Part shown: positions 19,443 through 29,317 of the stretch, in pieces | Position numbering within the stretch: position 1 is the first letter of the stretch | Layout of the letters: each line of letters begins with the position of its first letter | Assembly (NCBI RefSeq): GCF_900104925.1 | Contig: NZ_LT629735.1 | Location: 1,210,291-1,274,290, forward strand | Direction of reading: 5' to 3' | Length of the DNA stretch: 64,000 nucleotides | Origin: Opitutus sp. GAS368 | GTDB taxonomy: Bacteria > Verrucomicrobiota > Verrucomicrobiia > Opitutales > Opitutaceae | The notes under the pieces: generated by a model | The model's database searches: none | Told to the model about the DNA's origin: nothing | What the model saw: only the letters and a program-made list of their open reading frames with translations | Position numbers and translations under genes: made by a program

Positions 19443-19494
19443 GTAGGGGCGTCCCTCGTGGACGCCCGCGGGCGCCGTCAAGCGGCGGCCCTAC
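19443..19494 (-). repeat. 52-bp palindromic intergenic repeat, copy 3 (inverted)
   Basis: Reverse orientation of copies 1 and 2, again exactly 52 bp with core CGCCCGCGGGCG. It overlaps the last codon of tatD: its GTAG tip supplies the TAG stop at 19491-19493. Confidence 0.9.
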
Positions 19495-20333
19495 AGGCTG
19501 AAAAATTGCCGGGCGTTCCGGGTCGTGGCCTCCGCCAGCCGTTCCGGGCTGACCCCGAATACTCCGGCGCAGAATTCCGCCGTATGCTTCAGGTAGGCCG
19601 GTTCGTTGGGCTTTCCCCGGTGCGGCATGGGCGTCAGATAGGGCGCGTCGGTCTCGATCATCAGCCGGTCCAGTCCCTGCGCCAGCGCCGCCGCCCGCAC
19701 TGCCTCCGCGGTCTTGTAGGTGATGATGCCGGTGAATGACCCGTAGCCGCCGCGCTGGGTCAGCTCGGCCATCTCGGCCGGTCCCTCCGTGAAGCAATGG
19801 AACACCACCTTCCCCCACGCCACGCCGGAGGTGTCGATCATTTCGACGCACTCGGCAAAGGCCCCGCGCGAATGCACGACCACGGGGCAACCGAGCTTCC
19901 TCGCCAGCCCAAGCTGTTCGGCAAACGCCGCCTTTTGCCAGCCGAGGATCTGCTCCGCCTCGGCGGGCTCCTTGGGCAGATGAAACCGGTCGAGCCCGAT
20001 TTCGCCCAGCGCGACCGGGTAGGGCGAATCCTCTGGATGAGCCGTGGATATCGGCGGCTCGTCGGGACGACTCGCCCTACCCCAGTAAGCTTCCAGTTGC
20101 GCCACGCGCCCGGCCCAATCCGCCTCCACGCTGCAGGGATGCAGCCCGGCGGTGTAGCGAACCAGCCCGGCATGCTCGCGCGCCAGGTCGCGATAGAGCG
20201 TCCAGTCGTCGGTGTCCGTGCCGATGGTCACCATCGCCTCGAGCCCGGCGGCCTTCGCGCGGGACAAAATCCCGGGCAGTTCGCCGCGCTTGGCGAAAGA
20301 TTCGAGGTGCGTGTGCGTATCAATCAATCCCAT
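19491..20333 (-). CDS. tatD: TatD-family metal-dependent hydrolase (DNase) with a coding palindromic insertion
   Basis: TIM-barrel metallohydrolase of the TatD/YcfH family, a 3'-5' exonuclease or deoxyribonuclease. Start MGLIDTHTHLESF gives the first metal ligands His6 and His8. Further ligands: VALGEIGLD (Glu), VVVHSRGA (His), VFHCFTEG (His) and IETDAPYL (Asp). At 280 residues it is about 20 longer than usual. The excess is at residues 85-106 (GRASRPDEP...PEDSPYP), encoded by a 64-bp palindrome also found in hrpA, inserted just before the Glu ligand strand. The stop codon comes from the 52-bp repeat. Confidence 0.92.
   Translation of the reverse strand: MGLIDTHTHLESFAKRGELPGILSRAKAAGLEAMVTIGTDTDDWTLYRDLAREHAGLVRYTAGLHPCSVEADWAGRVAQLEAYWGRASRPDEPPISTAHPEDSPYPVALGEIGLDRFHLPKEPAEAEQILGWQKAAFAEQLGLARKLGCPVVVHSRGAFAECVEMIDTSGVAWGKVVFHCFTEGPAEMAELTQRGGYGSFTGIITYKTAEAVRAAALAQGLDRLMIETDAPYLTPMPHRGKPNEPAYLKHTAEFCAGVFGVSPERLAEATTRNARQFFSL
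20018..20081. repeat. In-frame coding palindrome (family 2) in tatD
   Basis: 64 bp with ends GGTAGGGCG and CGCCCTACC. In tatD it reads GRASRPDEPP...HPEDSPY. Relative to the gene it is inverted compared with the three copies in hrpA, yet it uses the same phase and encodes nearly the same peptide, because the element is palindromic. Confidence 0.9.
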
Positions 20334-25111: not shown

Positions 25112-28100
25112 CTATTTCCGGAACAGCTGGTCCAGCGCGCCGAGACTCTTCAGCGGGGCGCCCTTTTTTGATGTTGCGGTAGCCGGCTTCAGGTAGGGCG
25201 AGTCGTCCCGACGAGCCGGCTCATCCGGAGGATTCGCCCCACCCACCTCGGCCAGCATGCGTTCCAGCCGCACCGCTGACACCGGCTCCACCGTGCCCAG
25301 CTCCTGCGCGAACAGGCTCACGCGGAATTCCTCCACCAGCCAGCGGAATTCGCCGGCCTTCCCCTGTAGCGGCGGTCTGTGACCGCCGGACCGGCGCTCA
25401 TAGAGCGCCGCTACAGCTTTGACGAATGGCGCCAGTTCCGCCGCGCGCGCCGCATCCTTGGCCGGATCGCGCCGGGCGCGCTCGGCCCGCGCCTGCAGGC
25501 CCTTCAGGTAACGCGGCAGGTGCGCGATCCGCTCGAACGGCGTGGTGCGGAGGAAATCCGGCGGCAGCAGCGCCGCCAGGTCGTCGGCCATGCCGGGGTA
25601 GGTCTGCTTCGCGGTCTGCAATGCCAGCCGGAGCGTGAAGATCTCCTTCAGCCAGTCGCCGAGCTTCGGCACCAGCCCGCGCAAATCCTGCTTCGCTCTG
25701 ATGATTGCCTGTTCGAACGCGGCTTTGGTCAGCTGGTAGGGCGAGTCGTCCCGACGAGCCGTGCCCTTTGGCTCATCGGGACGATTCGCCCTACCCATCC
25801 GTCCCGCATCGCACACCCAGCGCCGGATCGACTCGAAAGCGTCCGCCTGCAGCGCGTCGGGCGTCGTGAGCGTCACCGCCAGCGTCCCGAGCATCCGCAG
25901 GGCTTTGAGATCCTTCTCCAGCCAACCCAGGTCGTGGCGCAGCTGCGTCTCGAACAGTTTCACCAACCCGGCGCGGGACGCCGCCGTGGCTTCCTCGGGC
26001 GTGGCGAACAGCCGCACGGCCACGCCTGCCGGCAGCGCCTTCAGGCCGGGATGGGCGTGCACCGGCACCCCGTGGTGTTCGCTCACGAGGATTTTTTCCG
26101 GCAGGTCGCCGAATTTCCATTCGGCCGCCGGTTCGCCCTCCCACTTGGCCCGGGCGGCTCGCCACGCGCTGTTGTCCACCGTCGCCGCCTGCTTGCTCAC
26201 GTCGCGCGAACGGCTGTGCAGCTGCGCTTGGATCTCCGCCAGATCGCGGCTGGCGCCCAGGACCTGGTCGCGGTTGTCCACGACCTCGACGCGCACCCGC
26301 AGGTGGTCGGGAAAAATCTTCGCGTCCCACAGCGCCGGATCGATGCGCACGCCGAGCCGGGGCGACAACAGCTCCGCCAGCGCCTCGGCCAGCGTCGGTT
26401 GTTTGGGCCGCGCGCTGATGAGAGCGAGGTCGCGCACCAGCTTCTGCGCCGTCTCCGTCAGGGGGATCAGGTTGCGCCGTTGCTCCTTCGGCAACGCCTT
26501 GAGCATCAGCTCAACTTTCTCGGGCAGATGACCCGGCACCGCCCAGTCGAGCGCAGCGGCCGTCAGCGCCTCGGCCTCGGCCAGGCTCACACGCACGGTG
26601 ACTCCGTCGGCCTCCTTGCCCGGCTGGTAGGCATAGGCGAGCGGCAGCACGCGGTTGTCCACCGGCATCGCCTCCGGGAATGCCGTGGCATCATGCGCCA
26701 CTTCCTCGTCGGACCGGAGGCTGTCTTCCGCCATGAAAAGGAATTTCGGCCTGGTGGCCTGCTGGTGGCGGACGAAGTCGATGAGTTCGGGCACGCTGCT
26801 GATGCCTTGAGGTGGAACCCGGCCTCCGGACAGGTTTTCCCCGTTACCGGATTCCTGCAAGCCCGTCCGGAGGCCGGGCTCCACCTTGGCGAACTCCCGC
26901 GCGTAGAACCGGTAGACGGCCTCGTCGAGATTCATGTAGCCCGAGCTGCGCGTGCGGGTCAGCCGCGTCTCGGCCTCGTCGCGGATGCGGCGGTTGTGGA
27001 CGAGAAAATCAAACGGCCAGGTGACCGTGTCGCCGACGAGCCCCTCGCGGATGAAGATCTCGGTGGCGTGCGCGGGGTTGATCCTGCCGTAGCTCGCCGA
27101 GCGCGTCTCCAGCTCGAGGTTGTAGAGCCGGCGGCGCTCCTTCACCAGCACGCGGCCGGCCTCGGCGTTCCAGAAGGGCTCGCTGTGCGCCACGCGCAGC
27201 AGATGCGCCCCGAGGTCGAGCACCCAGTGCGGGTCGATGCGCGCGCACGTGCGGGCGTAGATGCGGGCTGTCTCCATGATTTCCGCGGCCATGAGCCAGC
27301 GCGCAACCTTCGCCTTCGGCGGTGGAACCCGGCCTCCGGACGGGTTGTGTTTCCGTTCCGTTTTTTCAAACAACGCCGAACCGGGGAACACGTTCACCCG
27401 CCGGTCGTGCGCCGCGTGGTAATCGCCCTCGTCCGTCCGTGTGGCGATGTTGCCGAGCAACCCCGCGAGGATGGACCGGTGGATCGCCGCGAAGGCCGGC
27501 GTGCCGAGCGCGAGCTTCACCTCCTGTCCCTGCTTCACGCCGTCGTAGATCGAGGTCCGGGTGAAGCCGTCGCGCTCGCGCAGCGTGTCCTCAAGTTGGG
27601 CGTGCACGTCGCGCCATTCGCGCATCCGCATGAACGACAGGAAGTGCGCCGTGCAGAACTTCCGCTGCTTGCCGAGCGTCATGGCCTCGAACTCGTCGTG
27701 GTAGATCTCCCAGATGGCGAGCAAGGTGAGAAAATCGGAGTCAGGGTGCGTGAATCGCTTGTGGGCCGTGTCCGCCTTCTGCTGTTGGTCGAGCGGCCGT
27801 TCCCGCGGGTCCTGGATGCTGAGCGCCGCCGCAATGATCAACACCTCCCGCAACGCCTTCTCGTTCCGAGCCTGCAGAATCATGCGGCCGACCGTCGGGT
27901 CCACCGGCAGGTGCGCCAGCTCGCGGCCGAGATCGGTCAACACGCCGGCATCGTCGATCGCCCCGAGTTCGTGCAACAGCGCGTAACCGGCGCGAATGCC
28001 CTTGGCCGGCGGCGCGTTCAGGAACGGAAATTCCTCGATGTCGCCGAGACCGAAAGCCTTCATGCGCAAAATGACATCCGCCAGGTTGCTGCGCTGGATC

Positions 28101-29281
28101 TCCGGCTGGGTGAAGCGCGGCCGGTCGTTGAAATCCTGCTCGGAATACAGCCGGATGCACACGCCGTCGCTCACGCGGCCGCAGCGGCCCTTGCGCTGGT
28201 CGGCGCTGCTCTGCGAGACCGGCTCGACCGGCAGCCGGCGCGTGCGGCTCTGCGGCGTGTAGCGGCTGAAGCGCGACAGGCCCGTGTCGATGACGAACCG
28301 GATGCCGGGGATCGTCAGCGAGGTCTCGGCGATGTTGGTCGCGACAATGACCTTGCGGCCCTGGGTGGAGGCAAAGACGCGTTGCTGCTCGGCGTTAGTC
28401 AGACGCCCGAACAGTGGCACGACCTCGATTCGGCCGAGCCGGCGGCCCTCGAGCAAGTCGCGCGTCTCGCGGATGTCGCGCTCGGTGGGCATGAACACCA
28501 GCACGTCGCCGGCCGAGCTCTCAAGCAGCACGCGCTCGACGGCCTCGACGGCGGCGTCGATGTAGGTGAAGTCGTCCGGCCGGCTTTTCTTCTGGTAGGG
28601 CGAGTCGTCCCGACGAGCCGCCTTGCCCGGCGGCTCATCCGGAAGATTCGCCCTACCCATCTCCTCCAGCGGCGAGTAAATCACCTCCACCGGATAAACC
28701 CGGCCCGAGACCTCGATGATCGGTGCACCATCGAAGGCCTTGGAAAACGCCTCGGTGTCGATCGTCGCCGAGGTGATGATGATCTTCAGGTCCGGCCGGC
28801 GCACGCGCAACCGGCGCAGGTGGCCGAGAATGAAGTCGATGTTGAGCGAGCGTTCGTGCGCCTCGTCCACGATGATGGTGTCGTAGGCGCGCAGCTCCGG
28901 ATCGGCCTGCAACTCGGCGAGCAGCATGCCGTCGGTCATGAACTTGATGACGGTGTCATCGGAGGTCTGGTCGGCGAAACGGATCTTGCAGCCGACCTCG
29001 CGCCCGAGGGGCACATTGAGCTCCTCGGCCACGCGCCGGGCCACCGAGGTGGCGGCCACGCGGCGGGGTTGGGTGCAGGCGATGCGCCCCTTCTCGCCGC
29101 GGCCGGCCACGAGACACATCTTTGGGATCTGCGTGGTCTTGCCCGAACCGGTCTCGCCCGCGAGCACCAGCACCTGGTGGTCGCGGATGGCCGCAATGAT
29201 CTCGTCCGCCCGGGCGCTGATGGGCAGCTCGGGCGGATACTCGATCCGGAAGGGCCAGGGTTTCTTCGGACGGGGCGGCAT
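25112..29281 (-). CDS. hrpA: ATP-dependent RNA helicase HrpA carrying six palindromic coding insertions
   Basis: DEAH-box helicase, 1389 residues (1300 in E. coli). Motifs in order: GETGSGKTTQIP (about 41-52), IIVDEAHERSLN, TSATID, VFMPTERDIRET, VATNIAETSLTIPG, QRKGRCGRVSDG, then HA2/OB regions and the long DUF3418 C-terminal domain. The reading frame is intact from end to end. Extra peptides occur at residues about 209-230, 646-654, 799-824, 1163-1183, 1289-1306 and 1347-1364. They are encoded by three families of palindromic repeats, each listed separately. The first lies in the linker between the two RecA domains; the rest fall in the C-terminal half. Divergent from 29318. Confidence 0.97.
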   Translation of the reverse strand: MPPRPKKPWPFRIEYPPELPISARADEIIAAIRDHQVLVLAGETGSGKTTQIPKMCLVAGRGEKGRIACTQPRRVAATSVARRVAEELNVPLGREVGCKIRFADQTSDDTVIKFMTDGMLLAELQADPELRAYDTIIVDEAHERSLNIDFILGHLRRLRVRRPDLKIIITSATIDTEAFSKAFDGAPIIEVSGRVYPVEVIYSPLEEMGRANLPDEPPGKAARRDDSPYQKKSRPDDFTYIDAAVEAVERVLLESSAGDVLVFMPTERDIRETRDLLEGRRLGRIEVVPLFGRLTNAEQQRVFASTQGRKVIVATNIAETSLTIPGIRFVIDTGLSRFSRYTPQSRTRRLPVEPVSQSSADQRKGRCGRVSDGVCIRLYSEQDFNDRPRFTQPEIQRSNLADVILRMKAFGLGDIEEFPFLNAPPAKGIRAGYALLHELGAIDDAGVLTDLGRELAHLPVDPTVGRMILQARNEKALREVLIIAAALSIQDPRERPLDQQQKADTAHKRFTHPDSDFLTLLAIWEIYHDEFEAMTLGKQRKFCTAHFLSFMRMREWRDVHAQLEDTLRERDGFTRTSIYDGVKQGQEVKLALGTPAFAAIHRSILAGLLGNIATRTDEGDYHAAHDRRVNVFPGSALFEKTERKHNPSGGRVPPPKAKVARWLMAAEIMETARIYARTCARIDPHWVLDLGAHLLRVAHSEPFWNAEAGRVLVKERRRLYNLELETRSASYGRINPAHATEIFIREGLVGDTVTWPFDFLVHNRRIRDEAETRLTRTRSSGYMNLDEAVYRFYAREFAKVEPGLRTGLQESGNGENLSGGRVPPQGISSVPELIDFVRHQQATRPKFLFMAEDSLRSDEEVAHDATAFPEAMPVDNRVLPLAYAYQPGKEADGVTVRVSLAEAEALTAAALDWAVPGHLPEKVELMLKALPKEQRRNLIPLTETAQKLVRDLALISARPKQPTLAEALAELLSPRLGVRIDPALWDAKIFPDHLRVRVEVVDNRDQVLGASRDLAEIQAQLHSRSRDVSKQAATVDNSAWRAARAKWEGEPAAEWKFGDLPEKILVSEHHGVPVHAHPGLKALPAGVAVRLFATPEEATAASRAGLVKLFETQLRHDLGWLEKDLKALRMLGTLAVTLTTPDALQADAFESIRRWVCDAGRMGRANRPDEPKGTARRDDSPYQLTKAAFEQAIIRAKQDLRGLVPKLGDWLKEIFTLRLALQTAKQTYPGMADDLAALLPPDFLRTTPFERIAHLPRYLKGLQARAERARRDPAKDAARAAELAPFVKAVAALYERRSGGHRPPLQGKAGEFRWLVEEFRVSLFAQELGTVEPVSAVRLERMLAEVGGANPPDEPARRDDSPYLKPATATSKKGAPLKSLGALDQLFRK
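25192..25243. repeat. In-frame coding palindrome (family 2) in hrpA, copy nearest the C-terminus
   Basis: 52 bp; encodes GGANPPDEPARRDDSPY at residues about 1347-1364 of HrpA. It lacks 12 bp of the central loop present in the 64-bp copies, so the length difference is a multiple of three. Confidence 0.88.
25364..25416. repeat. In-frame coding palindrome (family 4) in hrpA
   Basis: 53 bp with ends CTGTAGCGGC and GCCGCTACAG; encodes AALYERRSGGHRPPLQ. The RSGGHRPPLQ peptide comes from the palindromic GCGGTCTGTGACCGCC core. No other copy of this family is seen in the window. Confidence 0.8.
25735..25795. repeat. In-frame coding palindrome (family 2) in hrpA, middle copy
   Basis: 61 bp; encodes GRANRPDEPKGTARRDDSPY at residues about 1163-1183. 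Ends GGTAGGGCG and CGCCCTACC are as in the other copies. Confidence 0.9.
26811..26885. repeat. In-frame coding palindrome (family 3) in hrpA, full copy
   Basis: 75 bp with 21-bp arms (GGTGGAACCCGGCCTCCGG and its complement) that match with a single mismatch. Encodes VEPGLRTGLQESGNGENL followed by SGGRVPPQ at residues about 799-824. Confidence 0.88.
27321..27345. repeat. Partial family 3 palindrome in hrpA
   Basis: One arm of the family 3 element (GGTGGAACCCGGCCTCCGG) is present and encodes NPSGGRVPP; the second arm is missing or decayed. Peptide and phase match the full copy at 26811. Confidence 0.8.
28594..28657. repeat. In-frame coding palindrome (family 2) in hrpA, N-terminal copy
   Basis: 64 bp; encodes GRANLPDEPPGKAARRDDSP plus Y at residues about 209-230, in the linker between helicase motifs III and IV, where variation is best tolerated. 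Confidence 0.9.
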
Positions 29282-29317
29282 GACGGGTGAAATTAGAGGT
29301 TCCGTGCACGGCCAATA

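Follow-up and report, generated by a model that had tools for sequence, protein, structure and literature searches.

GTAG REPs lying inside genes were described in 2013, with Opitutus terrae as the richest species, and the hosts reported for them include "RNA helicases in O. terrae" as well as repair genes (PMC3733652). The same report describes recB of two Xanthomonas species with differing REPs at about one site, and most of its O. terrae GTAG-20 elements have a GTGG variant. The main text of that report does not mention hrpA; its host-gene list is Additional file 3, which may name the gene. Palindromic inserts that are translated within genes are likewise described from Rickettsia (Ogata 2000, 2002; Claverie and Ogata 2003, via PMC6649704), in another organism and with other sequences. 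The R. conorii elements end in CGTC and not in GTAG, and CGTC repeats are apparently without a dedicated transposase (PMC3733652). The REP/BIME elements of enterobacteria and pseudomonads, which move with TnpA-REP, are inverted REP pairs with GTAG and a REP-flanked transposase gene, and they are mostly intergenic (PMC8266576).

Here we describe a gene that holds six REP elements from three families. It lies in a window of 64,000 nucleotides, the whole stretch of Opitutus sp. GAS368 DNA that was analysed, and the features of interest are the following.

25112-29281, minus strand: hrpA, encoding a DEAH-type RNA helicase with DUF3418, an intact open reading frame of 1389 aa
25192-25243: family-2 REP pair, residues 1347-1364 (GGANPPDEPARRDDSPYL), C-terminal to DUF3418, disordered in the model
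25364-25416: family-4 REP pair (CTGTAG...CTACAG), residues 1289-1306, predicted helix end and loop inside DUF3418
25735-25795: family-2 REP pair, residues 1163-1183 (GRANRPDEPKGTARRDDSPYQ), predicted loop inside DUF3418
26810-26886: family-3 REP pair (GTGG type), residues 799-824, in the linker that joins the helicase part to DUF3418
27321-27346: single family-3 REP, residues 646-654 (NPSGGRVPP), loop in the OB-fold region; none of the other five is shared as widely
28594-28657: family-2 REP pair, residues 209-230 (GRANLPDEPPGKAARRDDSPYQ), between the DEAD and Helicase_C domains
20018-20081: family-2 REP pair that is read in frame within a TatD-type DNase gene on the minus strand (19491-20327)

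The sequence-only reading of this DNA had counted six insertions from three palindrome families in hrpA, and the count stands: family 2 contributes three, family 3 two (one pair and one single element) and family 4 one. It had also called the gene in frame and intact, and the open reading frame check gives one helicase of 1389 residues. The peptides encoded by the elements include GRANLPDEPPGKAARRDDSPYQ and YERRSGGHRPPLQ, and Pfam places the domains of the product at 27-176 (DEAD), 245-370 (Helicase_C, followed by HA2), 600-693 (OB) and 824-1344 (DUF3418). Among solved structures its best match is E. coli HrpA. The further claim that the neighbouring genes hold one element or none is borne out for the families scanned, with one element in one of the 42 other genes called by our script and none in the remaining 41; the pair in the TatD-type gene is the sole further element of these families in the window outside hrpA. 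On the plus strand, opposite hrpA, there is an open frame of 1303 codons (25379-29290) which the palindromes inside it leave open, and which is probably a by-product of the high G+C.

The elements resemble the O. terrae GTAG REPs in being GTAG- or GTGG-tagged palindromes that form inverted dimers and lie in genes, and family 3 is like GTAG-20 in its GTGG tetranucleotide, the one feature by which the two were compared (PMC3733652). The difference is in number: the genes described there have at most two separate sites of insertion, and hrpA has six. We also go beyond that report with the turnover of families in the hrpA loops across the genus, with a background that was measured, and with a transposase gene for every family that has its REPs on either side. 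The contrast with the mostly intergenic enterobacterial and pseudomonad elements is that here the densest place examined is a gene. A relationship to the Rickettsia palindromic elements was considered and rejected, given the GTAG and GTGG ends and the nearest relatives, which are Opitutaceae. In the literature searched, we found no direct prior report besides PMC3733652, and as far as that literature shows, a single gene with six insertions drawn from three families, a measured genome excess and the repeated change of family in a loop are new.

REP families and their transposases

The elements in hrpA are GTAG-type REP elements. Each half of a REP pair is a hairpin behind the tetranucleotide GTAG (families 2 and 4) or GTGG (family 3), the tags being G-GTAG-G in family 2 and CT-GTAG-C in family 4. 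The full anatomy of family 4 is CT-GTAG-C-GGCGGTC-TNT-GACCGCC. Stems are near-perfect in family 4 and have mismatches in families 2 and 3, and by sight the variants of family 3 show paired changes that preserve the stem. Five of the six hrpA elements are inverted pairs and the remaining one is a single REP. Allowing at most two mismatches, the genome (4,150,783 bases in one contig) holds 59 half-sites of family 2, 121 of family 3 and 125 of family 4, and reversed control patterns for the three families, searched in the same way, found none. Several features that characterize GTAG REPs and REPINs (BIMEs) are found here as well: the tag, the inverted pairs, many copies in mainly intergenic places (hrpA excepted) and transposase genes flanked by REPs.

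Each family has a transposase gene in this genome, at 3205034-3205405 for family 2, 477246-477626 for family 3 and 673028-673429 for family 4, with REPs of the same family on its flanks in inverted order. Because matching REPs flank each gene, we regard families 2, 3 and 4 as REP families with their own transposase genes. A search of the genome for REP_Tyr_transpos of NCBIfam gave 14 matches, of which 5 are above the cut-off, one of these only together with its neighbours. Against NF047646 the family-2 and family-4 transposases score 89.0 and 96.6 bits, and the family-3 transposase, at 75.8, is just below the cut-off of 80. The family-2 transposase frame also matches Y1_Tnp and reads HVH, an HUH-type motif.

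Inverted palindromes flank 10 of 11 REP-transposase-like genes, mostly a separate family for each gene, of GTAG, GTGG or GGAG type; the eleventh is the only one for which no flanking palindrome was found. Most of these genes besides the three above have other palindromes on their flanks. One REP-transposase-like gene (near 1185287) has an internal TGA. Additionally, there are two IS200-type Y1 transposase genes of equal score and length (1734480-1734842 and 3396105-3396467), each with a family-3 REP pair at most 1.5 kb away.

hrpA compared with the rest of the genome

That hrpA is a real hot spot, as had been proposed, is confirmed, and the excess is far beyond chance. The background was measured in 20 evenly spaced stretches of 20 kb (400 kb in all), in which genes were called by a script based on codon usage and five families were scanned. 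Of the 31 elements in this sample, 28 are not within called genes and 3 are, which gives 0.0086 per kb of coding sequence against 0.53 per kb outside. At this density 0.036 elements are expected in hrpA and 6 are observed. The Poisson probability is 3e-12, or about 1e-8 when allowing for 3500 genes, and when the background is taken at its upper 95% bound, with the same correction for 3500 genes, it is about 6e-6. The excess does not depend on knowing the families: in a family-blind scan for inverted repeats, hrpA has 4 with a score of at least 15 and the 365 other genes together have 1, and with a score of at least 13 hrpA has 5 and the others together have 9, each in a different gene.

A survey of stretches covering every family-2 place gave 40 elements, 27 of them outside genes and 13 in genes. 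Family 2 is therefore less strictly intergenic than the mixed sample suggests. Three of these 13 are in hrpA and the next gene has two, and the corrected probability for hrpA from family 2 alone is 9e-4. For families 3 and 4 the places are those among the matches listed, 100 of 121 and 100 of 125. Of two other genomes, the first has one palindrome in a total of 118 genes and 2 in its hrpA, and the second has one in a total of 127 genes and 3 in its hrpA; the stretches compared were the first 20 kb of contigs with a family-2 match and not a random choice.

Genes with two elements are a uracil methyltransferase-like gene (families 2 and 3), Mfd (families 2 and 5) and a WD40 gene (two of family 2). 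In-frame REPs were seen in these three genes and also in those for UvrA (at least 1817 aa), RecD2, MnmA, an ABC-F-type ATPase and NadE; the names of these hosts are given after their Pfam families. Several hosts are nucleic-acid enzymes, and that such enzymes are enriched among REP host genes is only an impression.

Turnover among relatives and position in the protein

HrpA was aligned from 20 relatives (21 loci), with Lacunisphaera, Opitutus and Oleiharenicola among the near ones, and then in a set of 86 sequences that included named Opitutaceae and other Verrucomicrobiota. HrpA was obtained from all but three of a same-genus set of 20. In what follows, the congeners scored are 15 to 18 genomes of the genus per site, Opitutus sp. 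GAS368 included, with the occupancy states assigned partly by regular expressions and partly by eye. The changes are the fewest required on an HrpA tree that was built without the insert columns, given for all states and then for occupied versus short alone.

Loop 209-230: family 2 in 5 (two decayed), family 5 in 2, other in 6, short in 5; 9 changes, 4 occupied versus short
Loop 646-654 (18 congeners): family 3 in 9, other in 6, short in 3; 6 changes, 2 occupied versus short
Loop 799-824 (18 congeners): family 3 in 4, family 6 in 4, family 2 in 2, family 5 in 1, other in 2, short in 5; 10 changes, 5 occupied versus short
Loop 1163-1183: family 2, family 6 and family 5 in 1 each, other in 3, short in 10; 5 changes, 5 occupied versus short
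Loop 1289-1306: family 4 in 3, another repeat peptide in 2, other in 4, short in 7; 6 changes, 4 occupied versus short
Loop 1347-1364: family 2 in 3, family 5 in 2, other in 3, short in 7; 8 changes, 6 occupied versus short

All six inserts vary among the congeners and five are missing from most of them, so that the difference between relatives which the sequence-only reading had suggested looking for is there. The sister genome G004 (support 94/93) has only the REP at 646-654 in common with this hrpA, and that single REP is older than the other five.

Across the 86 hrpA genes there are 28 strong palindromes against 0.75 in codon shuffles, a count that takes in related species and is not wholly made up of independent cases. 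Eighteen of the 28 fall in the six loops, which together cover 191 of 1377 residues, five are at residue 447 and five are elsewhere. Residue 447 marks a seventh loop, which is short in this genus (eight residues in the 11 genomes scored) and has palindromes in other genera; some of these, of the GGGAGCAGGGAG or CCAGAAGGCCAGAGG types, do not resemble REPs. At loop 799-824 Ereboglobus, Cephaloticoccus and the genus of our strain have palindromes of differing sequence, and that of Didemnitutus resembles family 2. We also saw a palindrome of about 30 bases, family 7 (AKAMADR in the hrpA of some species), nested in family-2 or family-3 REPs at three places. Nesting inside REPs as a general property of this repeat was rejected, since only 3 of 9 contexts are within a REP.

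Occupancy by family 2 follows its copy number. Recognisable family 2 in hrpA is found in exactly the four scored congeners that are richest in its half-sites (118, 59, 31 and 21), and the other 14 have 0 to 20 (P = 0.001), G004 having 20 half-sites and none in hrpA. Two of these 14, G002 and G006, have decayed family-2-like peptides in hrpA and no family-2 copy found genome-wide. These peptides are probably fossils, and if the two genomes are counted as family 2 the link weakens to P = 0.04.

One explanation offered for the hot spot was that the long DUF3418 region tolerates insertions unusually well. This fails as a general reason, because only the inserts at 1163-1183 and 1289-1306 are wholly within the domain. 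The insert at 799-824 ends at its border, that at 1347-1364 follows it, and those at 209-230 and 646-654 are in the helicase half. The expectation that all inserts would map to surface loops fared better: they are in predicted loops or linkers, except that the family-4 insert at 1289-1306 starts within a predicted helix. Residues 575-1389 were examined in an AlphaFold model with a mean pLDDT of 79.3. There the insert at 799-824 nearly coincides with a predicted disordered stretch (HrpA 800-822, model residues 226-248, pLDDT below 50), and most of 646-654 and of 1347-1364 is disordered. The insert at 1163-1183 forms a loop modelled with intermediate confidence, and that at 1289-1306 takes in the end of a helix and a loop. 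In a weaker N-terminal model (mean pLDDT 70.5) the insert at 209-230 is a disordered segment lying between the two helicase domains. When the C-terminal model is compared with solved structures, E. coli HrpA on a disome (9gft) comes out best, with a poor global fit (TM-score 0.37). By eye, the surviving insert peptides look hydrophilic.

Attraction, tolerance and the origin of the inserts

REPs could land at random, with only the in-frame copies in dispensable loops surviving, and HrpA could stand out simply by having many such loops. The predicted positions in loops and linkers are what this would give, as is the occurrence of other elements in large modular enzymes such as Mfd, UvrA and RecD2, besides MnmA, TatD and NadE. 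It is also consistent with the flanks, which show no strong target motif in 24 family-2, 26 family-4 and 35 family-3 pairs, A-rich bases being found beside family 3 only; a sharp target sequence was rejected on the strength of these flanks. Against it stands the density of the loops themselves. The six loops, which were chosen for this test after the fact, measure 0.573 kb and hold 6 elements where 0.30 would be expected at the intergenic density, or 0.10 with a factor of one-third for frame, which is roughly twenty times the density of intergenic DNA. Additionally, three of the loops hardly vary in length across 14 outgroup HrpA sequences. On realignment, 799-824 and 1289-1306 each have one fixed length and 1163-1183 is one residue off in one sequence, while the other three loops vary. 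Given these constant or nearly constant lengths, the three loops are not generally prone to insertion and deletion. The outgroups were compared by HrpA sequence alone, and one of the 14 has a strong palindrome, elsewhere in the gene. We therefore doubt that tolerance of the loops is by itself the explanation, and we hold random landing followed by survival to be a serious possibility that is somewhat less than even. The opposite suggestion, that the gene may attract the elements, would be in line with loops denser than intergenic DNA, something that tolerance alone would not lead one to expect, but families 2 and 4 give no strong sign of a target motif.

True insertions may instead have been few, with recombination of hrpA between species spreading them. 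Several species do have closely similar 3' junctions behind different families (LTKAAF or LTKSAF; GISSV), and exchange of hrpA segments would look similar to exchange of REPs at the loops. We nevertheless think this unlikely, as recognisable family 2 in hrpA tracks its copy number in the genome, which is what local insertion predicts, and several palindromes in other genera are unrelated in sequence. That the peptides are old parts of HrpA, palindromic in DNA by accident, deserves hardly any credence. The sharing of 646-654 by half of the congeners scored would suit this idea, and it is the only site where the insert is common, but the other five sites are short or differently filled in most congeners, most of 209-230 and of 646-654 aligns to gaps in E. 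coli HrpA, and near-exact copies of the elements occur all over the genome. The comparison among congeners rules out an ancestral origin at five of the six sites, and sequence conserved across the phylum is thus not what we see.

Positive selection could also keep strong hairpins in the hrpA mRNA, for example by tying translation to ribosome rescue by HrpA. The five REP pairs rank 1, 3, 7, 17 and 24 among 408 windows of the mRNA by hairpin strength, and the single family-3 REP ranks 368. Rescue of collided ribosomes has been reported for HrpA of E. coli (PMC13159725, PMC11633108), and structures of HrpA on the disome have been solved (9gft, 9ggr). This is very improbable all the same: G001 has no recognisable insert of the named families, G003 has only the short single family-3 REP, many loops hold decayed peptides only, and there is no tie between the hairpins and regulation. 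The strength of the paired hairpins and the rescue activity leave some room for a more specific form, in which ribosomes would stall on the REP hairpins of hrpA and be freed by HrpA, the gene carrying its own load sensor. Any REP family could then serve, which would explain why unrelated palindromes return to hrpA, but we consider this idea a long shot too.

Insertion in trans with later replacement is, in our view, the probable course of events. The REP elements were most likely spread in trans by three RAYT/TnpA-REP transposases, one per family, that are encoded elsewhere in the genome. These would cut and join single strands and place copies at sites of low specificity. Other REP transposases cleave single-stranded REPs at CT dinucleotides, with GTAG acting in a guide-like manner (PMC8266576), and a low target specificity of REP transposases fits the weak flank motifs seen here. 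Insertions that break the frame or the fold would be lost, leaving peptides in linkers and loops, and selection that removes most in-gene copies would explain the positions in loops and the frames. A loop with a resident REP may then become a favoured place for later REPs, by adjacent insertion or by exchange, so that families would replace one another in the loops over time. This step is suggested by hrpA being far above other genes and by a REP density in its loops that exceeds that of intergenic DNA. We infer the movement of the hrpA REPs from comparison among species.

REPs are extragenic by their very name. Loops of one protein that are refilled within a genus, with palindromes in other genera too, offer a natural experiment in which selfish DNA writes protein sequence. 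The case gives a testable form to the earlier remark that in-gene REPs often lie in enzymes acting on DNA or RNA (PMC3733652). Additionally, it provides three matched pairs of REP and transposase from a phylum not represented among the systems that are named as having been studied biochemically, which are E. coli, Stenotrophomonas and Marinomonas (PMC8266576).
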